60,856 nucleotides of DNA from assembly GCA_013697785.1 (NCBI GenBank), contig JACCWE010000107.1:1-60856 (forward strand), in the 5' to 3' direction. This document shows, one piece after another, positions 4,820 through 19,948 of this stretch. The notes under the pieces are model-generated. The model did not search any database. It was not told where the DNA came from and saw only the letters and a list, made by a program, of their open reading frames with translations. The translations under genes and the position numbers were made by a program. The DNA comes from Gemmatimonadaceae bacterium (GTDB lineage Bacteria > Gemmatimonadota > Gemmatimonadetes > Gemmatimonadales > Gemmatimonadaceae). Position 1 is the stretch's first letter, and each line of letters begins with the position of its first letter.

Positions 4820-5374
4820 CTAGAGCCGCGGAAGCGTCACTCCGCGCTGACCCTGGTACTTTCCCTTCCGGTCCGCATACGACGTCTCCGGCGGCTCATC
4901 GCCCTCGAAGAACAGCGCCTGCGCGATTCCCTCGTTGGCGTAGATTTTTGCCGGCAGCGGCGTCGTGTTCGAGATCTCGAGCGTCACGAAGCCCTCCCAC
5001 TCCGGCTCGAACGGCGTCACGTTCGTGATGATCCCGCAGCGCGCGTACGTCGATTTGCCCACCGTTATCGTGATGACGTTGCGCGGGATGCGGAAGTATT
5101 CGACAGAGCGTCCGAGCGCGAACGAGTTCGGCGGGACGATGCAGACGTCGCCCTCCCACTCGACGAACGACTTCGGATCGAAGTGCTTCGGGTCCACCAT
5201 CGAGTTCAAGACGTTGGTGAAGATCTTGAACTCGGTCGCGACGCGCATGTCGTATCCGTACGAGCTGACGCCGTAGGAGATGACGCCCTCGCGAACCTGG
5301 CGGTCGGCAAAAGGCTCGATCATACCGTGCTCAAGCGCCATCTGGCGGATCCAGCGATCGGACTTGATGGACAT
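4820..5374 (-). CDS. dcd: dCTP deaminase
   Basis: 184 residues of the dCTP deaminase/dUTPase trimer fold; the enzyme converts dCTP to dUTP for thymidylate synthesis. The [10 protein letters not shown] segment gives the expected Ser and Arg (S108, R112), and [14 protein letters not shown] supplies the catalytic glutamate (E133). The SSYGYDMR motif near residues 37-44 is also typical. It is transcribed away from nuoA and shares a 145-nt divergent control region with it. It lies upstream of the lipoprotein gene on the same strand, but the 151-nt gap with its own -10 box argues for separate transcription. Whether it also hydrolyses dUTP cannot be told from sequence. Confidence 0.93.
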
Positions 5375-5490
5375 GTCTCGTAGGTGGTGAGGTAGGGGTC
5401 GGTCAGCCGGAGGGGAATGTATCGCTCCCCATTGAGCATGGCAAAGCGCATTGCAGAGATGTTATCCCCTGGATAGTTTTCCGGCGGGGA

Positions 5491-5508
5491 TAGTGAAAAA
5501 TTTCACTA
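5491..5508. promoter_or_regulatory. Rex-type operator palindrome upstream of nuoA
   Basis: An 18-bp sequence, TAGTGAAAAATTTCACTA, is a perfect inverted repeat of 8 bp around two A. It contains GTGAA-N4-TTCAC, the core of operators for Rex, the NADH/NAD+-sensing repressor of respiratory genes. It ends 11 nt before the nuoA start, next to the GGGAG ribosome site at 5512-5516, and overlaps a GATAGT -10-like hexamer at 5489-5494. Binding here would block nuo transcription when NADH is low. No rex gene lies in this window, so the regulator is inferred from the motif. Confidence 0.6.
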
Positions 5509-5519
5509 ATTGGGAGACG

Positions 5520-5924
5520 ATGGGTCGCGAGTATTTTCCGATTCTCATGCTGGTGGGGTTCGTGGCCGTTAACGCGGTCGGGATGCTCGGCTTGTCCCAT
5601 CTCACCATCCGTCCGCGCCCCACTCCCGTCAAGCAGACAGCCTACGAGTCAGGCATCCCCCCGCTCGGCGACGCACGCGAGCGATTCTCCGTCAAGTTCT
5701 ACATGGTCGCCATGCTGTTCATCGTCTTCGACATCGAGACGGTGTTCATGATTCCCTGGGCGACCTACTATAGACAGCTCTCGTGCGACGTGCCGCTCGT
5801 ACACGGCGCGTGCGCCGCTTCGCACCTTTCATTCTTCGGACTCGGCGAGATGCTCGTGTTCATCGCGATCCTGCTCGTCGGCTACGTCTACGTCTGGAAG
5901 AAGGGAGCGCTGCAATGGGACTGA
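5520..5924 (+). CDS. nuoA: NADH-quinone oxidoreductase subunit A
   Basis: 134 residues with three transmembrane helices, as in the NuoA/ND3 family. The conserved loop [20 protein letters not shown] and the following FDIET acidic motif are visible. NuoA sits at the junction of the membrane and peripheral arms of complex I. I use ATG 5520, preceded by GGGAG; the open frame extends 23 codons upstream through the operator and is unlikely to be translated there. The 3' end overlaps nuoB by 10 nt. A stretch of about 20 residues between helices 2 and 3 (containing two Cys) is somewhat longer than in E. coli. Confidence 0.94.
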
Positions 5925-6538
5925 CCCAGTCTGCTCCCGCGAGCACCACCTTCGCCGCCCCGCAGCAGGAGAGCTGGGTCGCCACGCGGCTCGACTTTCT
6001 GGTGAACTGGAGCCGCTCGAAGTCGCTCTGGCCAATGCCCTTCGGCACTGCGTGCTGCGCGATCGAGTTCATGGCGACCGCCGCGACGCGCTTCGATCTC
6101 GCGCGCTTCGGCATGGAGCGCATGAGCTTCTCGCCTCGCCAGGCCGACGTGCTGATCTGCGCCGGTAGAGTGCCGTTCAAGCTTGCACCGGTGCTCCGCC
6201 GCATCTGGCAGCAAATGCCGCAACCCAAGTGGGCGATCTCTATGGGTGCATGCGCTTCGTCCGGCGGGATGTTCGACAACTACGCAGTGGTGCAGGGGAT
6301 CGACACGATCATCCCTGTCGACGTGTACGTGCCAGGTTGTCCGCCGCGTCCCGAAGGATTGATCTACGGGATCATGATGCTGCAGGAAAAAGTGATGCGC
6401 GAGAAGATGGCCGACAACTCGATCCGGAACGAGATGGAGCCCGATCCCGAGAGCGGCCTGTACATTCCTGCGAGCAGGATCGACGAGCTGTCCGAGCCGT
6501 TCGGAAATTCGGTGCAGCAGACGCGGTCTGGACTGTGA
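5915..6538 (+). CDS. nuoB: NADH-quinone oxidoreductase subunit B
   Basis: 207 residues. NuoB binds cluster N2, the last iron-sulfur centre before quinone. Its four ligands are present: the adjacent pair C47-C48 in [11 protein letters not shown]113 in [10 protein letters not shown], and C142 in [12 protein letters not shown]. The start ATG lies inside the nuoA 3' end. The last codons overlap the GTG start of nuoC. About 25 residues at the N-terminus and 30 at the C-terminus are extra, variable tails. Confidence 0.96.
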
Positions 6539-7236
6539 ACGTTCCGTTCTCTCCGGTGCTTCCAGGCAGCGCGAATCCCGGTGCACCAGCGCCGGCGACG
6601 CCGCGCAATCTTCCGCAACGTGGCGGTGAGCCGAATCCATCCGCGGCGGCAATCGCTGCGAAGTTCGGGAAGTCGTTCCTGCGCACCGAAGTCGTCTGGG
6701 GCGAAACGAACGTCTACATCCAGGCGAGCGCTGTGAGCGAGATCATTCGCTGGCTGCACGACGATGCCTCGCAGCAGTACGACTATCTCTCCGACGTTAC
6801 CGCCGTCGAGTTCCGCGATCCCGAGCAGCCGCTCGAGGTCGTGTGGCATCTGCGATCGCTTCCGTATCGCCGCTTCCTGCGAGTGAAGGTGTCGCTCGAC
6901 AAGCGCGTCAAGCTCGAGGTCGACAGCGTGTGGCCGATTTACAAGGCCGCGAACTGGCTCGAGCGCGAGTGCTTCGACATGTTCGGCATCACCTTCAACG
7001 GACACCCTGATCTCCGGCGCATCCTGATGTGGGAGTCGTATCGCGAAGGCTTTCCGCTGCGCAAGGACTTCCCGCTGCGCGGACGCTTCTCCCGCGCCGA
7101 GCAGCTGCGTCAGGCGCTGAGCATCACGACGGAGGGTCGCTACTCGATGGAAGAGCTGTCCGTGGCGCAGGCGTTCGAGGATCTCCCCGACGACATGCGT
7201 CGCCGCCTCGCCGGCGGCGAGCGGACGGGCGAATAA
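6535..7236 (+). CDS. nuoC: NADH-quinone oxidoreductase subunit C
   Basis: 233 residues of the 30-kDa subunit of the complex I peripheral arm. The signature region [20 protein letters not shown] followed by PLRKDFPL is diagnostic. The GTG start at 6535 overlaps the nuoB stop (GTGA). The first 40 residues are rich in Pro, Ala and Gly and look disordered; the conserved domain begins near residue 45. NuoC and NuoD are separate genes here, unlike the fused NuoCD of E. coli. Confidence 0.94.
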
Positions 7237-7237
7237 A

Positions 7238-8554
7238 ATGGCGACCACGACTCGCACAGTAGAAGTCGCGCTCGGCACCGCCGGCGTCGATTCCGATGGG
7301 CGCGCGGTTCGCACGCCCATGACCGTCACCGAAAACGGATCAGTGACGACGCTCGAGCCGCCGGCGATGGGCGTTGCTCCCGAGCTCGCGGGCGAGCACA
7401 TGCTGATCAACATCGGACCCCAGCATCCGGCGACGCACGGCGTGCTGCGCCTCGTGCTCGAGCTCGATGGAGAGACGGTCGTGCGTTGCGTTCCGCACAT
7501 CGGCTATCTGCACTGCGGCTTCGAGAAGATCGGCGAGTATCGCCAGTACAATCAGGTGATCCCGTGGACCGATCGAGAGGACTATCTCAACTCGATCGGC
7601 AACAATGTGGCCTTCTCGATCGGAGCCGAGCGCCTGTTCGGAGTCGAAGTGCCGCCGAGATGCACGGTGCTGCGCGTGATCGCGATGGAGCTCTCGCGCA
7701 TCATCTCGCATCTCGTGTGGCTCGGCACTACCTGCATCGACCTCGGCGCCTTCACTCCGTTCCTGTGGAGCTTCCAGGAACGCGAGAACGTCTACAACCT
7801 GCTGGAGAGCTGGGTCGGCGCTCGTCTCACCACGAGCGCGACGCGCGTTGGCGGGATGGCGGCCGACATTCCGGAAGGGTGGACGGATCAGCTCCGTCAC
7901 TTCATTCGCACCTTCCCGAAGACGGTCGACGAGTGCGACCGGATGCTCACGAAGAACGGCATCTGGATCGGTCGCACCACGGCGCTCGGCGTGATGTCCG
8001 CGGACGAGGCGATCAACTACGGGCTGTCGGGGCCGATGCTCCGCGCCTCCGGCGTCGCGTACGATGTGCGGAAGGACTTTCCGTATCTCGACTACGAGAC
8101 GTACGACTTCGACGTTCCGGTCGGCTCGAACGGCGACGTCTACGATCGCTTCCTCGTGCGCGTCGAAGAGCTCCGGCAGTCCACGCGCATTCTCGCGCAG
8201 GCGGTCGACAGGCTTCCCGATGGTCCCGTCAACTCGAGCGATCATCGCGTAATCCTGCCTCCGAAGAGCCGCGCGATGAGCGACATGGAGTCGATGATCC
8301 ATCACTTCAAGCAAGTCATGGAAGGGCCCCGGCCGCCGATCGGCGAGGTTTACGTTCCGGTCGAGAGCCCCAAGGGCGAAAAGGGCTACTACTTTGTGTC
8401 CGACGGAACGGCGAAGCCGGTGCGCTGGCGGATTCGTCCGCCGTCCTACGTGAATCTGTCGGCCATCGCGAAGATGGTCGAAGGGCATCTGCTCTCCGAC
8501 GTCATCGCGATCAACGCAAGCATCGACATCGTCATGGGAGAAATCGACCGGTGA
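7238..8554 (+). CDS. nuoD: NADH-quinone oxidoreductase subunit D
   Basis: 438 residues of the 49-kDa subunit, which forms the quinone-reduction chamber with NuoB. The NIGPQHPATHGVLR motif (residues 58-71) holds the histidine that contacts quinone, and CGFEKIGEYR and the final segment near DIVMGEIDR are typical. ATG 7238 lies one base after the nuoC stop. The first 50 residues are a poorly conserved extension. The last codons overlap the nuoE start. Confidence 0.96.
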   Translation: MATTTRTVEVALGTAGVDSDGRAVRTPMTVTENGSVTTLEPPAMGVAPELAGEHMLINIGPQHPATHGVLRLVLELDGETVVRCVPHIGYLHCGFEKIGEYRQYNQVIPWTDREDYLNSIGNNVAFSIGAERLFGVEVPPRCTVLRVIAMELSRIISHLVWLGTTCIDLGAFTPFLWSFQERENVYNLLESWVGARLTTSATRVGGMAADIPEGWTDQLRHFIRTFPKTVDECDRMLTKNGIWIGRTTALGVMSADEAINYGLSGPMLRASGVAYDVRKDFPYLDYETYDFDVPVGSNGDVYDRFLVRVEELRQSTRILAQAVDRLPDGPVNSSDHRVILPPKSRAMSDMESMIHHFKQVMEGPRPPIGEVYVPVESPKGEKGYYFVSDGTAKPVRWRIRPPSYVNLSAIAKMVEGHLLSDVIAINASIDIVMGEIDR

Positions 8555-9105
8555 GCGCTCAACGCGAAGGAGCGACGCAGGGCGAGGCGATGGATCATTC
8601 GAGTGGCGGCAGCATCGGCGAGATCCCTTATCGGCCCGTGTTCGTCGGCGCATTGAAGGAGGAGCTCGAGGCGCTGCTCGGTCGCTATCCAACCAAGATG
8701 GCCGCGCTGCTTCCCGCGCTCTGGATCATCCAGCGCGAGCGCGGCTGGGTCAGCGAAGAGGCGATGGTCGAGATTGGGCAGCAGCTCGAGCTCACGCCAG
8801 CGTACGTGAAGGGTGTCGTCACCTTCTATACGATGTACCACCAGCATCCGGTGGGGCGCCACTTCATTCAGGTCTGCACCACGTCGCCCTGCGGCGCATG
8901 TGGGGCGGAGAAGGTCGTCGAAGCGCTCCTCGCGCAGACGGGATGCGTCGACCTTGGCGCAACGTCGCCGGACGGTCGCTACACGGTGGTCGAGGTCGAG
9001 TGCCTCGGCGCCTGTGGCTTCGCGACACCGATCATGGTGAACGACGATTTCATCGAGTCGGTCACTCCCGAGAAGGTCCCGCAGATTCTCACTCAGTTCA
9101 AATAG
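8551..9105 (+). CDS. nuoE: NADH-quinone oxidoreductase subunit E (2Fe-2S)
   Basis: 184 residues if begun at GTG 8551, which overlaps the nuoD stop; ATG 8590, preceded by a GA-rich stretch, would give 171 residues and is equally plausible. NuoE is the 24-kDa subunit with cluster N1a. Its ligands are visible as CTTSPC (CX4C) and CLGAC (CX3C). It pairs with NuoF, which starts immediately after its stop, in the NADH-oxidising module. Confidence 0.94.
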   Translation: MSAQREGATQGEAMDHSSGGSIGEIPYRPVFVGALKEELEALLGRYPTKMAALLPALWIIQRERGWVSEEAMVEIGQQLELTPAYVKGVVTFYTMYHQHPVGRHFIQVCTTSPCGACGAEKVVEALLAQTGCVDLGATSPDGRYTVVEVECLGACGFATPIMVNDDFIESVTPEKVPQILTQFK

Positions 9106-10418
<1,313 letters not shown>

Positions 10419-10419
<1 letters not shown>

Positions 10420-11996
10420 TGGCTGACGCGACGATGGTCACGCTGACGATCGAGGGGCGCGAGGTCCAGGTGCCTGCGGGAACCTCGATTCTCGAGGCCG
10501 CGAAGCTCGCCGGCGTGCTCGTGCCTCACTATTGCTATCACCCGGGCCTGCCGGTCGCGGGTGTGTGCCGCATGTGTCTCGTCGAGGTGGACAAGGCGCC
10601 GAAGCTCGCGCCCGCGTGCGCGACGGCGGTTGCCGATGGACAGGTGGTGCACGTGCACTCCGAGAAGTCGCTCAAGGCGCGTCAGGGCGTGCTCGAGCTC
10701 CTGCTCATCAACCATCCGCTCGACTGCCCGATCTGCGATCAGGCCGGCGAGTGTGAGCTGCAGGACTACACCTTCCGCGAAGGGCGCACGCAAGGACGGC
10801 TTGGTCCGGAGCCGAAGCGCTTCAACCCGGTCGAGGATTTCGGCGGCGACGTGCTGTACGTCCCGAACCGCTGCATCCTCTGCACGCGCTGCGTGCGCTA
10901 CATGGACGAGATCGTGAAGGAGCCCGTGCTCAACGTGAGCGAGCGCGGCGACCGTGCGGTGATCGGCAAGTTCGACGGTCAGGATCTCACGAACGAGTGG
11001 GCATCGAACGTGGTCGATCTCTGTCCGGTGGGCGCACTGCTCTCGAAGGATTTCTTGAACAAGGCGCGCGCGTGGGAGCTGGATCGCACGCCGAGCATCT
11101 GCCCGAACTGCACGCAAGGGTGCAACTCGATTCTGGAGACGCGCGACAACGTCGTCGTGCGCATGCGGCCGCGCTCGAACGCCGAAGTCAATCAGTGGTA
11201 TCTCTGCGAGACGGGACGCCTCGACTACAAGTGGCTCAACCCATCGACGCGTCTCGAGGCGCCGCTCGTGCGGCAGGGCGCCGAGAAGCTCTCGGCCGTC
11301 GACTGGGACGTGGCCATTCGCTCTGCAGCGACGATGCTCGGCGGGGCGCGCGTGGTCGCACTCGTGAGCCCAATGCTCTCGAACGAGTCGCTCTTCCTGG
11401 CGTCGCGCGTGGTCGCGCGCACGGGCGGGAAGGGAGTCTTCCGCGTGACGACGGGCCCCGAGGCGCCGCTCCCCGGCGTGCCGGATCTCGCGCTGCGCGC
11501 CGAGCGCGCGGCGAACGTGCGCGGCGCCGAGCTCCTCGGCTTCGCGAAATCCGCGTCGCCGCTCGATGAGCTCAAGGCGGGAGACGTGCTGCTCGTGATT
11601 GGCGAGACGCTCACCGCTGCGGACACCGCGGCGATCGCGCGTGCGAGCCAGGTGATACTCATCGCCCCGACGATTCCGGAACACGCACGGGGCGCCGCGA
11701 TCGCGCTGCCGTCGTCGACGATGTCGGAGGAAGAGGGAACGTTCACGAATCTGCGAGGACGCGTGCAACGGTACTTCCAGGCGAACGCTGCGCCCGGGAT
11801 GTCGCGCCCGGCGTGGTGGGTGCTCGGCGATCTTCTCACCCAGCTCGGTGAGCCGACCAGCATGTTCGTCGCGAGCGAGGCCTTCACCGCGCTGGCAGCG
11901 GCGCGCGTGGAATTTGCCGGAATGAGCTACGACGCTCTCGGAGTGAAAGGCCTGCTCATGGCTGGGCAGCCGGCGGCGCAGGTGGTCGCGCAATGA
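10419..11996 (+). CDS. nuoG: NADH-quinone oxidoreductase subunit G, short form
   Basis: 525 residues. The N-terminal 220 carry the usual clusters: N1b (C39, C50, C53, C67), N5 (H99, C103, C106, C112) and N4 (C152, C155, C158, C202). A fourth set, C228, C231, C235 and C263 in CX2CX3CX27C spacing, matches the optional cluster N7 known from E. coli and Thermus. The molybdopterin-oxidoreductase-like part that follows is only about 260 residues, much shorter than in those proteins, yet the frame is intact and the stop overlaps nuoH, so this is a compact subunit and not a broken gene. Confidence 0.94.
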
Positions 11997-13315
11997 TGCT
12001 CGCGACGCTGGCCGTGATGGCTTCCGATCCGGTCGTCTACCATACGTATTACGATCCGCTGGTGCCGGTCACGGCGCTGCCATGGCTGCTGTACACGATC
12101 CTGAAGATGATCATCGTGTTCACGGTGCTCATGGTCGGCGTCGCCATGCTGACGCTGGCCGAGCGCAAGATCTCCGCATGGATTCAGGATCGCATTGGGC
12201 CGAACCGCACGGGGTACGGCGGACTGCTGCAGCCGGCCGCCGACGGTCTCAAGAACATCATGAAGGAAGAGACATATCCGGACGCCGCGTATATGCCGCT
12301 CTTCATTCTCGCGCCGATGCTGTCGTTCATCCCGTCGCTCATCACCTTCGCGGTGATCCCGTTCGCGGCTCCGTTCAGCTCGCGGTGGGGGCTGGTCGAG
12401 ATGTCGGTAGCCGACGTGCCGATCGGCTTCCTCTATATTCTCGCGATCTCCTCGCTCGGCGTCTACGGCATCGTGCTCGCGGGGTGGTCGTCGAACAACA
12501 AGTACTCGCTGCTCGGTGGGCTCCGCTCGAGCGCGCAGATGATCAGCTACGAGATCTCGATGGGGATGGCGGCCGTGTCGGTGCTGCTGCTCTCGGGGAA
12601 CGTCTCGCTGCAGGCAATCGTGCATCAGCAGCAGACGATGGGATGGAACGTGTTCCCGCTGCTCATCGGCTTCTTCATCTTCTGCGTCGCCTCCTTCGCG
12701 GAAACGAACCGCCTTCCGTTCGACATGCCGGAAGCCGAGTCGGAGCTGATCGCCGGTTACCATACCGAATACAGCGCAATGAAGTTCTCGATGTTCTTCA
12801 TCGCCGAGTACTCGAACATGGTCACGGCGAGTGCGCTGATGGTGACGCTGTTCTTCGGCGGCTGGGACATTCCGGGCACGCAGTGGGACAACATTCCGCC
12901 CTGGACTCTGCTCAAGTTCCTGCTGACGCTCGGCTTCTTCTTCACCAAGCTGCTGTTCTTCCTGTTCCTCTACATGTGGATCCGCTGGACGCTGCCGCGC
13001 TTCCGCTACGATCAGCTCATGAGCCTCGGCTGGAAGTTCATGCTACCGCTCGCGCTCGCGTATATCGTGATCACGGGCGGCGCGATCCTCGTACTCGACA
13101 TGCTTCAAGTGCCCCGCAGCGTGCAGTGGTTCGGGATCTCGCCGTTCTGGGCCGTGCTCGGCGTGTTGAATCTGGTGCTGGCCGTGCTCGTCTTCGTGAT
13201 CCTCGATCGAGGACGCATCATCAGCCCCGCTTACTCGCGCCTGTCGCCGCTGCATATCGCGCGTCTGCGGGCGATGAGCGCGGCGCGTCCGTTCGCTGCA
13301 AGTCAGGGAGATTGA
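11993..13315 (+). CDS. nuoH: NADH-quinone oxidoreductase subunit H
   Basis: 440 residues with about eight to nine membrane helices. NuoH forms the membrane-side wall of the quinone site. The loop LAERKISAWIQDRIGPNRTG and the FAETNRLPFDMPEAESELI segment with its acidic residues are family hallmarks. The length exceeds the common 320-350 residues because of an N-terminal extension and about 70 extra C-terminal residues that include another hydrophobic stretch. It overlaps nuoG by 4 nt and is followed by nuoI after one base. Confidence 0.95.
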   Translation: MMLATLAVMASDPVVYHTYYDPLVPVTALPWLLYTILKMIIVFTVLMVGVAMLTLAERKISAWIQDRIGPNRTGYGGLLQPAADGLKNIMKEETYPDAAYMPLFILAPMLSFIPSLITFAVIPFAAPFSSRWGLVEMSVADVPIGFLYILAISSLGVYGIVLAGWSSNNKYSLLGGLRSSAQMISYEISMGMAAVSVLLLSGNVSLQAIVHQQQTMGWNVFPLLIGFFIFCVASFAETNRLPFDMPEAESELIAGYHTEYSAMKFSMFFIAEYSNMVTASALMVTLFFGGWDIPGTQWDNIPPWTLLKFLLTLGFFFTKLLFFLFLYMWIRWTLPRFRYDQLMSLGWKFMLPLALAYIVITGGAILVLDMLQVPRSVQWFGISPFWAVLGVLNLVLAVLVFVILDRGRIISPAYSRLSPLHIARLRAMSAARPFAASQGD

Positions 13316-13316
13316 A

Positions 13317-13814
13317 ATGACGATTCAGGTGAAGGTGCTCACGCGTCCGGTGGCTGATGCGAGTTACGTGCGCGCGATGCTGAGCGGGATGGCGCTGACC
13401 TTCAAGCACATGATGAACCCGCACAAGAAGACGGAGCAGTATCCGGATGTGAAGTGGGCGCTGTCGCCGCGGTGGCGCGGCACGCACCGGATGCTCACGG
13501 ACGAGACGGGAAAGGCGAAGTGTGTCGCGTGCGGACTCTGCCCGCAGATCTGCCCTGCGAACTGCATCAAGCTGGTGCCGGGCGAAGACGAGGAAGGGAA
13601 CCGCTATCCGCTCGTGTACGAGATCGACGAGTTCCGCTGCATCTTTTGCGGCTATTGCCAGGAAGTGTGTCCGGAGGAGGCGATCCACGTCGGGCGCCAC
13701 TACGAGAACTCGGAGTACAGCCGGCAGGGTTTCGTCTACGATCTCGAGCGGCTCACCGCGCAAACGCATCCGGTGTGCGAGATGTGGGATCCCGCCGATC
13801 CGAAAGGCGAATGA
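13317..13814 (+). CDS. nuoI: NADH-quinone oxidoreductase subunit I
   Basis: 165 residues. Two ferredoxin-type motifs, CVACGLCPQICPANC and CIFCGYCQEVCPEEA, bind clusters N6a and N6b, which carry electrons from NuoG towards NuoB. An amphipathic N-terminal helix (near residues 18-35) is expected to lie along the membrane. ATG 13317 follows the nuoH stop by one base, and the end overlaps the nuoJ start (ATGA). Confidence 0.96.
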   Translation: MTIQVKVLTRPVADASYVRAMLSGMALTFKHMMNPHKKTEQYPDVKWALSPRWRGTHRMLTDETGKAKCVACGLCPQICPANCIKLVPGEDEEGNRYPLVYEIDEFRCIFCGYCQEVCPEEAIHVGRHYENSEYSRQGFVYDLERLTAQTHPVCEMWDPADPKGE

Positions 13815-14329
13815 ACACGCTTCTTTACACCTTCCACTTCTATCTCTTCGGGCTGATCTCCATCGCTTCGGCGGTGGCGTTCGTCACGCGAAAGAGTCCG
13901 GTCGCGGCGGCGCTGTGGCTCGTGAACACGATGTTCTGCCTTTCCGCACTCTACGTGATGCTCGATGCGCAGTTCATCGGGGCGGTGCAGGTGCTCGTGT
14001 ACGCGGGTGCGATCATGGTCGTCTTTCTCTTCGTCGTCATGCTGCTGAATCTCGGCCAGGCCTCGGATGTCACCGACATGCGCGGATTGGGCGGGCGGCT
14101 GACGGCGGGGCTCGTCGGCCTCGCGATGCTGGCCGAGCTCTTCGCGCTGAGCCGGATCAAGTTTCCGCGCCTCACGGGCGCGATGGGTGATCATGCGAAC
14201 GTCGTCAATCCGATCTCCGCTCCACTCTTCCATGAATATCTGCTTCCCTTCGAGGTGACGAGCGTGGTGCTGCTCGTCGCGGTCGTCGGCGCAGTCGTTC
14301 TGGCCAAGCGAGGACCGGGCGCCTCATGA
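13811..14329 (+). CDS. nuoJ: NADH-quinone oxidoreductase subunit J
   Basis: 172 residues with five membrane helices, the NuoJ/ND6 pattern. The third helix with [19 protein letters not shown], containing the pi-bulge region, is characteristic. It belongs to the proton-translocating membrane arm. The start ATG overlaps the nuoI stop and the end overlaps nuoK; a longer open frame upstream lies inside nuoI and is not used. Confidence 0.94.
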
Positions 14330-14622
14330 TCGCCGAAGCGCTCTTCTTCTCGGCCGTGCTGTTCACGATCGGCGTCGTTGGCGTCCTGACGCGACGCAAC
14401 GCGATCATCATCTTCATGTGCGTGGAGCTCATGCTCAACGCGGTGAATCTGTCGTTCATCGCGCTGTCGCGGCTGCACGGGTCGGCGAACGGACAGGTGT
14501 TCGTGCTCTTCGTAATGACGATCGCCGCGGCGGAAGCGGCGGTGGGCCTGGCGATCATCATCTCGATCTTCCGCCACCATAAATCGGTGGACCTTCGCAA
14601 CATCAATCTGCTGAAAGGCTGA
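14326..14622 (+). CDS. nuoK: NADH-quinone oxidoreductase subunit K
   Basis: 98 residues and three membrane helices, the usual NuoK/ND4L size. The second helix has the conserved membrane glutamate in [13 protein letters not shown], and the third has another in the [10 protein letters not shown] segment; both take part in proton transfer. It overlaps nuoJ by 4 nt and shares one base with the nuoL start. Confidence 0.95.
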
Positions 14623-16844
14623 TGCTTCAGGACCTGGCCGCCGCCGGTAGTCACCCGCTCGCGGATACGGCCGCGCGATATGTTGGCCTGCTCCCACTGT
14701 TGCCGCTCGCCGGATTTCTGGTGAACGGCGCGCTGTCGCTGATGCCGGCATACAAGGCGGGGCCGGCGGATCCGTCCACTGCGGGACATGGGCACGAGGC
14801 TTCGGCGCACGCCGGCGACGCGCGCGCCGGTGACGCGCACGCAGTGACACACGGCGACGAGCACGGCGCGGTGGGCGACGATCATCACGTGGTCGCCCGG
14901 CACAAGTATGCCGGTGTCGCGAGCGTCGTCGGTCCTCTCGTGCTCGCGCTCTCGTTCGGGCTCGCGGTCATGATCTGGCTGGCGATGGCGGGCGCGGGAG
15001 AGATGACTACGCCCTACGTCCAGACGTTCTTCGACTGGATGGTCACCGGCGACCTCAAGATCTCGTGGGCGTTCCAGCTCGACCAGCTCTCGATGATCAT
15101 GGTGCTCGTGATCACCGGAGTCGGCACCCTCATCCACATCTTCAGTATCGGCTACATGCGCGACGACCCCGGGTATCCGCGGTTCTTCGCCTATCTGAAT
15201 CTCTTCGTCGCCTTCATGCTGGTGCTCGTCCTTGGCGCGAGCTATCTCGTGCTGTTCGTGGGTTGGGAAGGCGTCGGACTGTGCTCGTATCTGCTCATTG
15301 GCTTCTGGTTCAGCGAGAAAGCGAACGCGGACGCCGGAAAGAAGGCGTTCATCGTCAATCGCATCGGCGACTTCGGCTTTCTGATCGCGATGTTCCTCCT
15401 GTTCGCGAATCTTGGGACCCTCGACTTCACGAGTGTGGCCGCGGCCGCGCCGACGCTCGGCTACAACAGCGCGCTGGTCACGACGATCTGCCTCTTTTTC
15501 TTTCTCGGTTGCGCCGGCAAGAGTGCGCAACTCCCGCTCTATGTGTGGCTGCCGGATGCCATGGCGGGTCCGACTCCCGTCTCGGCCCTGATCCACGCGG
15601 CGACGATGGTCACCGCCGGCGTCTATCTCATCGCTCGAAGCGGCGTCCTCTTCGCGATGTCGCCCACCGCGTGCATCACGGTGGCAGTGGTCGGGACGCT
15701 CACGGCGCTCTTCGCCGCGACGATCGGCCTCAAGCAGTGGGACATCAAGAAGGTGCTCGCGTATTCCACGATCTCCCAGCTCGGCTACATGTTCATGGGC
15801 GTGGGCACAGGTGCGTATGCGGCCGGCATGTTCCATCTGATCACGCACGCGTTCTTCAAGGCGCTTCTGTTCCTCGGCTCTGGCTCGGTGATCTACGCGA
15901 TGCACGCGGCGTATCACCACACAGGGAGCCACGAGGATGCGCAGGACATGCGCAACATGGGCGGCCTCAGGAAGTACATGCCGGTGACGTTCGTGCTGAT
16001 GTGGATCGCGACGCTTGCAATCGCGGGTGTGCCGCCGTTCTCGGGGTTCTTCTCGAAGGACGGTATCCTCAGTGCCGTATTCGCGCGCGCGCAGCACGGG
16101 GCTCTTTCCGAGGCGACGTGGCTCGGCATGCCTGGGAGCGCGGTGCTCTACGCTCTTTACGGATTGGGGCTCGTCACCGCCTTCCTCACCGCGATCTACA
16201 TGACGCGGATGATGCTCTACACCTTCCATGGTCCGAATCGCACCGGTGAGGCGGAGCAGGCGCACCTGCACGAGGCGCCGTGGTCCATGACGGGTCCGCT
16301 CGTGGTGCTCGGCGTGTTGAGCGCGGTAGGTGGCTGGCTCAATCTCCCCGTCGCGATTCCGCTCGGACCGATCGGCGTGCTCGAGAAGTGGCTCGAGCCG
16401 GTGGTTGGCGCGGCGACGGTGGCCGTCGGCGGAGCGGTAGGCGAAGAGGTGACGAACACCGAATATGGTCTGATCGGCGCTGCGGTCGCGATTGCGATCC
16501 TCGGCATCGTGGTCGCCGTCGTGAAGCTCAGGCCCGCGGCCCTCGTGCCGAAGCGCGATGCGACTCCGTCGCATGGCTTCGAGCAGGTGCTCGAGGACAA
16601 GTACTACGTCGACGAGGTCTACGACGATACGATCATCAAGCCGCTCGTCTCCGGCTCGCGCAACATTCTCTGGACCGGCATCGACCGCGGGATCATCGAC
16701 AGTCTGTTCGTGAACGGCTCCGCGGTACTCGCGCGCGGAGTGGGCTGGGTCGGCTCGCAACTGCAGTCCGGGGAGACAGGCGCTTACGCGTGGGCGATCG
16801 CGATCGGTGCGCTCGCGGTTCTTGGCGCTTTCACCTTCCGCTGA
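14622..16844 (+). CDS. nuoL: NADH-quinone oxidoreductase subunit L with His-rich insertion
   Basis: 740 residues, longer than the 610-650 usual for this antiporter-like subunit. The core is standard: WEGVGLCSYLLIGFW, then QLPLYVWLPDAMAGPTPVSA, with the key lysine and glutamate of the proton channel. The extra length includes a hydrophilic loop after the first helix (residues about 50-95) holding nine histidines among Asp, Gly and Ala, and a longer segment around residues 640-680 before the last helix. It is the distal subunit of the membrane arm. The frame is intact; nuoM starts 3 nt after its stop. Confidence 0.95.
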   Translation: MLQDLAAAGSHPLADTAARYVGLLPLLPLAGFLVNGALSLMPAYKAGPADPSTAGHGHEASAHAGDARAGDAHAVTHGDEHGAVGDDHHVVARHKYAGVASVVGPLVLALSFGLAVMIWLAMAGAGEMTTPYVQTFFDWMVTGDLKISWAFQLDQLSMIMVLVITGVGTLIHIFSIGYMRDDPGYPRFFAYLNLFVAFMLVLVLGASYLVLFVGWEGVGLCSYLLIGFWFSEKANADAGKKAFIVNRIGDFGFLIAMFLLFANLGTLDFTSVAAAAPTLGYNSALVTTICLFFFLGCAGKSAQLPLYVWLPDAMAGPTPVSALIHAATMVTAGVYLIARSGVLFAMSPTACITVAVVGTLTALFAATIGLKQWDIKKVLAYSTISQLGYMFMGVGTGAYAAGMFHLITHAFFKALLFLGSGSVIYAMHAAYHHTGSHEDAQDMRNMGGLRKYMPVTFVLMWIATLAIAGVPPFSGFFSKDGILSAVFARAQHGALSEATWLGMPGSAVLYALYGLGLVTAFLTAIYMTRMMLYTFHGPNRTGEAEQAHLHEAPWSMTGPLVVLGVLSAVGGWLNLPVAIPLGPIGVLEKWLEPVVGAATVAVGGAVGEEVTNTEYGLIGAAVAIAILGIVVAVVKLRPAALVPKRDATPSHGFEQVLEDKYYVDEVYDDTIIKPLVSGSRNILWTGIDRGIIDSLFVNGSAVLARGVGWVGSQLQSGETGAYAWAIAIGALAVLGAFTFR

Positions 16845-16847
16845 CCC

Positions 16848-18425
16848 ATGCAAGACTTTCTGGTTCAGATCAACTACAACGCCTGGATTCTGCCGGCGCT
16901 GCTGCTCATACCGCTGGCCGGCGCACTCGTTCTGCTCGTGACCGGCTCGCTCTCGAGCGACGACGGCACGCTCGAAGGCGCGCCCTCCGCGCGCATGGTC
17001 GCGCTTCTCGTCTTCGTGCTCGAGTTCGTCGTCTCGATGGGACTCTGGTGGTCGTACGATCCCGCCGGCTCGCGCTGGCAGGCGACCTACGATCACTGGT
17101 GGATCATTCCGTGGAACGCGCGTCTGTCGCTTGGCATCGACGGCATCTCGCTCATGATGGTGCTCCTCACCACCGTGATCATGCCGCTCGCCGTCCTCGG
17201 GAGCTGGACGTCGATTCGCTCGAAGGTGCGCAGCTACTACGCGCTGCTGATGGTGCTCACCACCGGGATGCTCGGCGTCTTCGTCTCGCGCGACATGCTC
17301 CTCTTCTACGTGATGTGGGAGATCATGCTCGTGCCGATGTACTTCATCATCGGTATCTGGGGCGGGGAGCGACGGATCTATGCGAGCCTCAAGTTCTTCG
17401 TCTACACGATGGCCGGATCGCTGCTGATGCTTGTCGGCATTCTGTATCTCTGGAATGCCTCGTCCGTTGGCGGAAGCCCCGCGACATTCGACTATGACCA
17501 GCTGCTCACCATCGCGCACACGCACAAGGCCGCGCTCTGGCTCTTCGGCGCCTTCTTCCTGGCGTTCGCGGTGAAGGTGCCGATGTTCCCGTTCCACACG
17601 TGGCTTCCCGATGCGCACGTCGAGGCGCCGACCGCCGGCTCCGTGATCCTGGCGGCGATCATGCTCAAGATGGGGACCTACGGCTTCCTTCGTTTTGCGA
17701 TGCCTCTCTTCCCATCGGCTGCGATGACGCCATGGGTGCGGACGACCATTCTGACGCTCGCAGTCATCGGCATCATTTACGGCGCGCTCGTCGCCATGGT
17801 GCAGCCTGATTTCAAGAAGCTCGTCGCCTACTCCTCGGTGAGCCATCTCGGCTTCGTCATGCTCGGCATCTTCGCGCTCACGCTGCAGAGTGTGCAGGGC
17901 GCACTCATGGTCATGATCAGCCACGGCATCTCGACCGGCGCGCTGTTCCTGCTCATCGGCATGATCTACGAGCGACGACACACCCGCCTCATCGAAGCAT
18001 ACGGTGGGATCGCTCGCGTCGTTCCGCTCTTCTCGACGCTCCTCGTCATCGTTTCGCTCAGCAGCATAGGACTTCCATCGACCAACGGTTTCGTCGGCGA
18101 GTTTCTCGTGCTGATCGGCTCGTTCCGCACGCATCCGTTCTTCGCTTTCTTCGCCACCACCGGCGTCATCTTCGCTGCGGCGTATCTACTCTGGGCGATT
18201 CAGCGCATTCTCTTCAATGCGCTCGACAAGCCGGAGAACGAGCACATCACCGATCTCAATGCGCGTGAGCTCACCATGATGGGCGTTCTCGTCGCCGCGA
18301 TCTTCTGGATTGGGATTTATCCTCAGCCGATCCTGAGGCGCATGGAGCCGTCCGCGGCGCTCTTCGTACGCACCGTGACCACCGGCCAGGCGAACGTTCG
18401 CACTGCTGCGCGGGGTGATCGCTGA
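16848..18425 (+). CDS. nuoM: NADH-quinone oxidoreductase subunit M
   Basis: 525 residues with about 14 membrane helices, an antiporter-like subunit of the complex I proton pump. MWEIMLVPMYFIIGIWGG carries the conserved glutamate, and VPMFPFHTWLPDAHVEAPT is the central signature. Length and composition are normal for the family. It shares one base with the nuoN start. Confidence 0.96.
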   Translation: MQDFLVQINYNAWILPALLLIPLAGALVLLVTGSLSSDDGTLEGAPSARMVALLVFVLEFVVSMGLWWSYDPAGSRWQATYDHWWIIPWNARLSLGIDGISLMMVLLTTVIMPLAVLGSWTSIRSKVRSYYALLMVLTTGMLGVFVSRDMLLFYVMWEIMLVPMYFIIGIWGGERRIYASLKFFVYTMAGSLLMLVGILYLWNASSVGGSPATFDYDQLLTIAHTHKAALWLFGAFFLAFAVKVPMFPFHTWLPDAHVEAPTAGSVILAAIMLKMGTYGFLRFAMPLFPSAAMTPWVRTTILTLAVIGIIYGALVAMVQPDFKKLVAYSSVSHLGFVMLGIFALTLQSVQGALMVMISHGISTGALFLLIGMIYERRHTRLIEAYGGIARVVPLFSTLLVIVSLSSIGLPSTNGFVGEFLVLIGSFRTHPFFAFFATTGVIFAAAYLLWAIQRILFNALDKPENEHITDLNARELTMMGVLVAAIFWIGIYPQPILRRMEPSAALFVRTVTTGQANVRTAARGDR

Positions 18426-19948
18426 TGTACTTCGATCTTCTCATTCCGTCGCAGCTCGCCGGCGCACTGATTCCCGATCTGATTCTGATAATCGGAGCGA
18501 TGCTCCTGCTGCTGGTCGCCGTGTGGGGTCCGGAGACGATGGCCCGCGCGCGACTCACCGGAATGCTGGCGATCGGCGTTTGCTTCGCTACCTTCGCCGC
18601 CGTCGTCTGGCTCTGGCATGGGCAGGCAACGGCGAGCGCCGGCATCATCGCCGTCGACGCCTTCCGCTGGGCAACGGACTGTATCATCCTGGCAGCGACG
18701 ATCATCGCCACGACGCTCATGATCGACTACAGCGAGCGCGAGCAGCTCGTCTCCGCCGAATCGTACGTGCTCCTGCTGCTCGCCGCGGGCGGCATGATGC
18801 TGCTCGCAGCGTCTCGCGATCTCATCGTCGTCTTCCTCGGCATCGAGCTGATGTCGATCGCGAGCTACGTACTCTCCGGGCTCGATCGGCGCAGCAGCCG
18901 AGGCGCAGAGGCGGCACTCAAGTACTTCCTGCTCGGCGCATTCTCGACGGGCTTCCTGCTCTACGGCATCGCGCTCGTCTACGGCGCCACCGGCTCGACG
19001 GACATCGAAACGATCGGCTCCGTGGTCACGGGCGCCAACTTCAACAATCCGCTGCTGCTCGCCGGCATCGGAATGTTGATCGTCGGATTCTGCTTCAAGA
19101 TCGCGGCGGTCCCATTCCACATGTGGGCTCCCGACGTCTACGACGGCGCGGCAACTCCGATCACCGCGTTCATGGCCGCTGCGGTGAAGGCCGCGGCCTT
19201 TGCCGCGTTTCTACGCGTCTGGATCGAGGCGTTTCCCGGCGCGACGGCCGCCTGGATGCACCCGCTGCAGTGGCTCGCCGCCCTCACGATGGTCGGCGGT
19301 AACGTGATCGCGCTTCAGCAGAAGAGCATGAAGCGCATGCTCGCGTATTCGAGCATCGCGCACGCCGGCTATCTCCTCGTGACCGTCGTCGTCGCCAACG
19401 CGCTCGGCGCCTCCGCGTTCCTCTTCTATCTCGTCGCCTACACGCTGGCGACGATGGGCGCCTTCGCCGTGGTCATCGCGCTTGGCGAGCCGGGTGAGCG
19501 GAACCAGCAGATTGCCGACTATGCGGGACTCTGGAACGTCGAACCGTGGCTCGCTGCGGCGATGGCGGTATTCATGATGGCGCTCCTCGGCTTTCCGATC
19601 GCGGGCGGTATGGGCTTCTTCGCCAAATTCTACGTGATCGATGCCGCCCTGCATGCGCCGCATCCGCAAACGGCACTCGCCGTCATCCTCGTGATCGCGA
19701 GCGTGATCTCCGCCGGCTACTACCTCGGCGTCGTTCTCGTCATGTTCATGAAGCCGCGCCCTGCCGACGCACTCGTCGTTCGTCCGGTGCCGACGGGAAC
19801 GTTCCTCGTGATCTATCTCTCCGCTTTCACGCTTCTGCTGTTCGGCATCCTTCCGAACGGATTCGCTGCACTCGCGCGCGAGAGCGTGCCAATCGGTATG
19901 GTAAGTTCACCGGCGAGAGCACCGGTGGCAGCCGCGGCCAGTCGATGA
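18425..19948 (+). CDS. nuoN: NADH-quinone oxidoreductase subunit N
   Basis: 507 residues, the third antiporter-like subunit. FLGIELMSIASYVLSG and VPFHMWAPDVYDGAATPITA are typical, as is the KRMLAYSSIAHAGY segment. It is the last of the fourteen nuo genes, which appear here in canonical order A-N without insertion. A GC-rich hairpin follows its stop. Confidence 0.96.
   Translation: MYFDLLIPSQLAGALIPDLILIIGAMLLLLVAVWGPETMARARLTGMLAIGVCFATFAAVVWLWHGQATASAGIIAVDAFRWATDCIILAATIIATTLMIDYSEREQLVSAESYVLLLLAAGGMMLLAASRDLIVVFLGIELMSIASYVLSGLDRRSSRGAEAALKYFLLGAFSTGFLLYGIALVYGATGSTDIETIGSVVTGANFNNPLLLAGIGMLIVGFCFKIAAVPFHMWAPDVYDGAATPITAFMAAAVKAAAFAAFLRVWIEAFPGATAAWMHPLQWLAALTMVGGNVIALQQKSMKRMLAYSSIAHAGYLLVTVVVANALGASAFLFYLVAYTLATMGAFAVVIALGEPGERNQQIADYAGLWNVEPWLAAAMAVFMMALLGFPIAGGMGFFAKFYVIDAALHAPHPQTALAVILVIASVISAGYYLGVVLVMFMKPRPADALVVRPVPTGTFLVIYLSAFTLLLFGILPNGFAALARESVPIGMVSSPARAPVAAAASR

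Follow-up and report, generated by a model that had tools for sequence, protein, structure and literature searches.

In a Gemmatimonadaceae bacterium, the genes for complex I are immediately preceded by an 18-bp palindrome, TAGTGAAAAATTTCACTA (positions 5491 to 5508 of the window, i.e., the whole 60,856-nucleotide stretch of DNA analyzed; no strand is assigned to it), which is very probably the operator at which the NADH-sensing repressor Rex binds to and represses the nuo operon. The original prediction of a Rex-type operator directly ahead of these genes gained support from the presence of a rex gene, from the conservation of the core of the palindrome, and from the co-variation of site and rex among relatives. 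From the sequence of the site, its conservation, the rex gene, the co-occurrence of the two, and canonical operators at other respiratory genes, we infer Rex binding, repression, the response to NADH, and the transcription start at nuoA.

The palindrome consists of two 8-bp arms, TAGTGAAA and TTTCACTA, which flank a 2-bp AA centre, and it contains the core GTGAA-N4-TTCAC (5493 to 5506; no strand assigned). It ends 11 nt ahead of the ATG at 5520 of nuoA (5520 to 5924, plus strand; PF00507, E = 9e-34), with which the complex I operon begins (nuoA-N, about 5520 to 19948, delineated from the open reading frames); a ribosome-binding-like GGGAG, read from the sequence, occupies positions 5512 to 5516 of the same strand. 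The uninterrupted 8-bp inverted repeat, its core, and its distance to nuoA had thus all been described correctly. As a bare 8-bp inverted repeat the palindrome is unremarkable: we counted 38 such repeats (spacer of at most 8 nt) across the window, and one arises in 1.1% of shuffled versions of the 145-bp intergenic region. What is remarkable is the sequence GTGAA-N4-TTCAC itself, which arose in none of 5000 shuffles of the intergenic region and for which pattern searches for further copies in the genome recovered 12 sites, compared with 0 for the reversed-pattern control. When set against the full consensus TTGTGAA-N4-TTCACAA, 2 of 14 bases differ at nuoA (A at position 2 and T at position 17). 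The palindrome is perfect in this genome, as had been claimed, but it is not so as a conserved unit: because the two genus mates, which have TAGTGAAAAATTTCACGA at the site, carry a G at the right flank, the outermost TA...TA symmetry is a change private to this genome. The conserved unit is the 14-bp core together with partly asymmetric flanks.

The site had been viewed against an actinobacterial background, a frame that does not fit this DNA since the closest named NuoA loci (93-94% identical) belong to Gemmatimonadaceae/Gemmatimonadetes MAGs; the actinobacterial parallel is still useful for comparison. A perfect core was found 27-63 nt before the nuoA match in 51 of 54 genomes of the family. 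Among 80 named nuoA loci, it is perfect in 74, contains one mismatch in 4, and is absent from 2. The sequence around the core drifts within the 74 perfect-core loci; the left flank (position 2) is A in 35, C in 34, and T in 5 of them, and the right flank is G in 70 and A in 4, so that the T of the window is absent from this set. The perfect core is also kept upstream of nuoA in 26 of 30 rex-bearing genomes of the class, and the nuoA sites from other families there have TTCACAA as their right half. This is the canonical Rex half-site, and the nuoA motif and the canonical Rex motif are therefore connected. The core is consequently retained in close as well as in distant relatives, and the loss from relatives that had been named as speaking against a Rex operator did not occur. 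The NuoA proteins of the Gemmatimonadaceae themselves contain a two-cysteine insertion about 15 residues long (residues 89-103; 5784 to 5828) that is absent from the other families of the class, where alignments break at residues 88 and 103.

Mining of the genome sequence revealed one clear rex gene (G000:C124), and the lack of a Rex homologue, the other outcome that would have spoken against the original prediction, was thereby not observed. The encoded protein contains both PF06971 and PF02629, i.e., a winged-helix DNA-binding domain and a Rossmann NAD(H)-binding domain, passes the cut-off of the NCBIfam Rex equivalog NF003992, and aligns through residues 11-213 with the solved Rex structures 2dt5 and 3ikt (E about 1e-50). 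The first ATG of rex is spanned by an exact TTGTGAA-TGAA-TTCACAA. Since the canonical TTGTGAAN4TTCACAA was present at the rex start in all 30 family rex loci read, a predicted Rex operator at rex is a fixed feature of the family. Every rex operator read has a T at position 2, where nearly all nuoA sites of the family carry A or C.

The presence of the site follows that of rex. Our class-wide sample comprised 295 genomes of at least 90% completeness, 23 of them without a PF06971 match, and we read the nuoA upstream regions of 30 rex-bearing genomes and of 18 of the 20 genomes listed as rex-less. A repeat search in which full-length Rex served as the query uncovered a C-terminal fragment of rex at a contig end of G147, which was counted as rex-bearing, and found no convincing Rex in the other rex-less genomes. 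When the family and class data were combined (93 genomes of at least 90% completeness), 71 of 76 genomes with rex and 3 of 17 without it had the core upstream of nuoA (Fisher p = 4e-10); collapsing the data to genera, which handles phylogeny to genus level alone, gave 49 of 54 and 2 of 12, respectively (p = 8e-7). Within the genera g67 and g95, rex-less species have lost the site and rex-bearing species have retained it. The canonical 18-mer occurs in 19 of 20 rex-bearing controls compared with 2 of 20 genomes in which no rex was detected. Exceptions exist in both directions, namely the site without a detected rex (G264, G279, and G140) and rex without a perfect site (G045, G082, and three genomes of family f3, G124, G131, and G254). 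The absence of rex from a draft assembly can be an assembly gap, as in G147; in G140, one of the 2 of 20 genomes with the canonical 18-mer, Rex operators are kept before NDH-2-like and cupredoxin genes, and its rex gene may simply be missing from the assembly. In G045, rex possesses its canonical operator (L081), and the nuoA site (L046) has decayed to TTCGTG-N8-CACGAA, with the outer symmetry alone left.

The palindrome had been thought to overlap a -10-like hexamer, a placement that found no support. We searched 74 nuoA upstream regions for the pattern TTG-N3, 16-18 nt, TA-N3-T and found it in 69 of them, compared with 1.4% of shuffles, with the -10 element ending 9-23 nt (mode 16) 5' of the core. 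The promoter of the window that fits the relatives is TTGCAG-N17-TAGTTT (5451 to 5479, plus strand). Its predicted -35 hexamer (5451 to 5456) is weak when taken alone, its predicted -10 hexamer (5474 to 5479) is conserved in the genus mates G032 and G056 and ends 13 nt 5' of the core, and its score is modest (7/12); a generic promoter scan omitted it. With this promoter located 5' of the palindrome, the operator is therefore likely to lie at about +5 to +22 relative to the predicted transcription start of nuoA, and not on the -10 hexamer. The divergently oriented dcd gene (dCTP deaminase; 4820 to 5374, minus strand; TIGR02274, E = 1.6e-46), whose promoter was suspected to be affected as well, is probably not a target and probably stands outside Rex control at the nuoA operator. 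Sharing of the operator is unlikely because a separate promoter is predicted for dcd, TTGCCA-N17-TACATT (5444 to 5416, minus strand; a consensus match only), 47 nt from the operator, and because the nuoA site is present at 14 loci without a nearby dcd.

The core of the palindrome also matches GTGA-N6-TCAC, the genome contains four Crp-type HTH matches, and the flanks of the nuoA sites are consistently unlike those of the rex operators, all of which would suit a reading of the site by another regulator with a similar half-site, e.g., of the Crp/Fnr family, and a merely indirect correlation with rex. We consider this improbable and rejected a Crp/Fnr-type reader, given that the presence of Crp-type proteins is discordant with that of the site: HTH matches over the Pfam cut-off occur in the site-less genomes G025, G138, G275, G090, and G115, and the site-bearing genomes G064, G091, and G146 lack them. 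Furthermore, the site tracks rex, and its right half in other families is the one expected for Rex.

Instead of a DNA operator, the inverted repeat might be a 5'-terminal hairpin of the nuo mRNA that influences its stability or translation, and the repeat is indeed situated within the predicted 5' leader and is foldable (z -1.8). Such a role is very unlikely. The five core pairs are invariant in the 74 loci with zero compensatory change, and the next pair is a non-pairing A-G in 32 of the 74 and A-A or C-A in 4 further loci; because the core pairs never vary and the next pair is often unable to form, the constraint is on the bases and not on their pairing. The lack of paired changes led us to reject the hairpin, against which the tracking of rex by the site also speaks. 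That the palindrome arose by chance and has no function can be practically dismissed: the frequency of 8-bp inverted repeats in the window would allow for it, but it is refuted by the retention of the core in nearly all relatives amid drifting neighbouring sequence, and the shuffles mentioned above speak against it as well.

Other members of a Rex regulon can be proposed. Canonical Rex operators are also present before rex, actA (alternative complex III), NDH-2, cupredoxin genes, and clpX, and nearly none were found in rex-less genomes. In the genome studied here, the rex, actA, and clpX sites match the full motif TTGTGAAN4TTCACAA. One of them (L153 1501-1518; G000:C119:75575-75592) is located 5' of an ActA-ActB-like alternative complex III operon that begins with a multihaem cytochrome c and a molybdopterin-type subunit; we assign these to ActA and ActB from PF14522, PF04879, and similarity to QrcA/QrcB models. 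The actA site was found again in eight relatives (G032, G056, G307, G007, G006, G001, G005, and G013). Another canonical operator, TTGTGAAATGATTCACAA, is positioned in the clpP-clpX gap (L151 1501-1518; G000:C70:11448-11465) and is common to the genus mates G032, G306, and G307; clpX would be an unusual Rex target, if real. In other relatives, the canonical operator precedes cupredoxin or NDH-2-like genes, the latter so named from their translated sequence alone. A set comprising actA, NDH-2-like, and cupredoxin genes is of the kind expected for Rex, as far as these predicted functions go. Two genomes of genus g67 (G064 and G091; nuoA loci L135 and L136) contain 17 and 9 exact canonical Rex 18-mers, respectively, compared with 1-4 elsewhere, which points to an enlarged Rex regulon.

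In the mechanism that we propose, a Rex dimer, either NAD+-bound or free, would occupy GTGAA-N4-TTCAC just 3' of the predicted start and, at about +5 to +22, would block initiation or early elongation. Upon a rise in the NADH/NAD+ ratio, NADH-bound Rex would leave the operator and complex I would be produced, so that its synthesis would match NADH re-oxidation to supply. The most interesting remaining point is the conserved difference between the nuoA and rex operators: nearly all members of the family have A or C at position 2 and a TTCACGA right half at nuoA, whereas rex of the same genomes always has TTGTGAA...TTCACAA. At nuoA, the canonical Rex operator occurs as a conserved variant that may have a lower affinity. 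The A or C at position 2, which is seldom a T, may lower Rex affinity relative to the rex operator, and the NADH/NAD+ ratio that frees nuo could then, speculatively, be below that for rex or actA. Only tentatively do we suggest that selection maintains a detuned Rex site at nuoA and that complex I, alternative complex III, NDH-2, and rex are released at different NADH/NAD+ ratios; if true, this would amount to a graded respiratory programme under one repressor.

Our search of a literature library for Rex in Gemmatimonadetes or Gemmatimonas found no report. With the putative nuoA operator, the control of complex I by Rex that has been proven in Streptomyces would extend to the Gemmatimonadota. 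The regulon outlined here (complex I, NDH-2, alternative complex III, and cupredoxin) spans the path from NADH to cytochrome c and would place respiratory capacity under a single metabolite ratio; the lineages that have lost rex and the site provide natural material for testing Rex control.

The core GTGAA-N4-TTCAC at nuoA is identical to that of the general Rex operator TTGTGAAN4TTCACAA (Ravcheev et al., 2012, cited by PMC5317091), from which the site deviates at positions 2 and 17 here and mostly by A or C in the family. In Caldithrix abyssi, a predicted Rex site precedes rex and hydrogenase genes (PMC5317091); a predicted site 5' of rex beyond the classical Gram-positive hosts is common to both cases, but the target in C. 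abyssi is a set of NADH-oxidising hydrogenase genes in one genome only. Footprints of Streptomyces avermitilis Rex (PMC5355995) cover the nuoA1 operator TTGTGACCTGCTTCACAT, which overlies the -35 element at -42 to -16, an atpI operator one half of which reads TTCACGA, and a cydA1 operator situated 3' of the transcription start. Since one or two mismatches do not prevent the binding of Rex to published S. avermitilis sites (PMC5355995), two deviations from the consensus alone do not exclude a Rex operator. As in S. avermitilis nuoA1-N1, a Rex-type operator stands before the nuoA-N operon, and the predicted geometry downstream of the start resembles that of cydA1 (PMC5355995). In contrast to the footprinted nuoA1 operator, the putative operator described here is TAGTGAAAAATTTCACTA, is predicted to lie at about +5 to +22, and belongs to another phylum.
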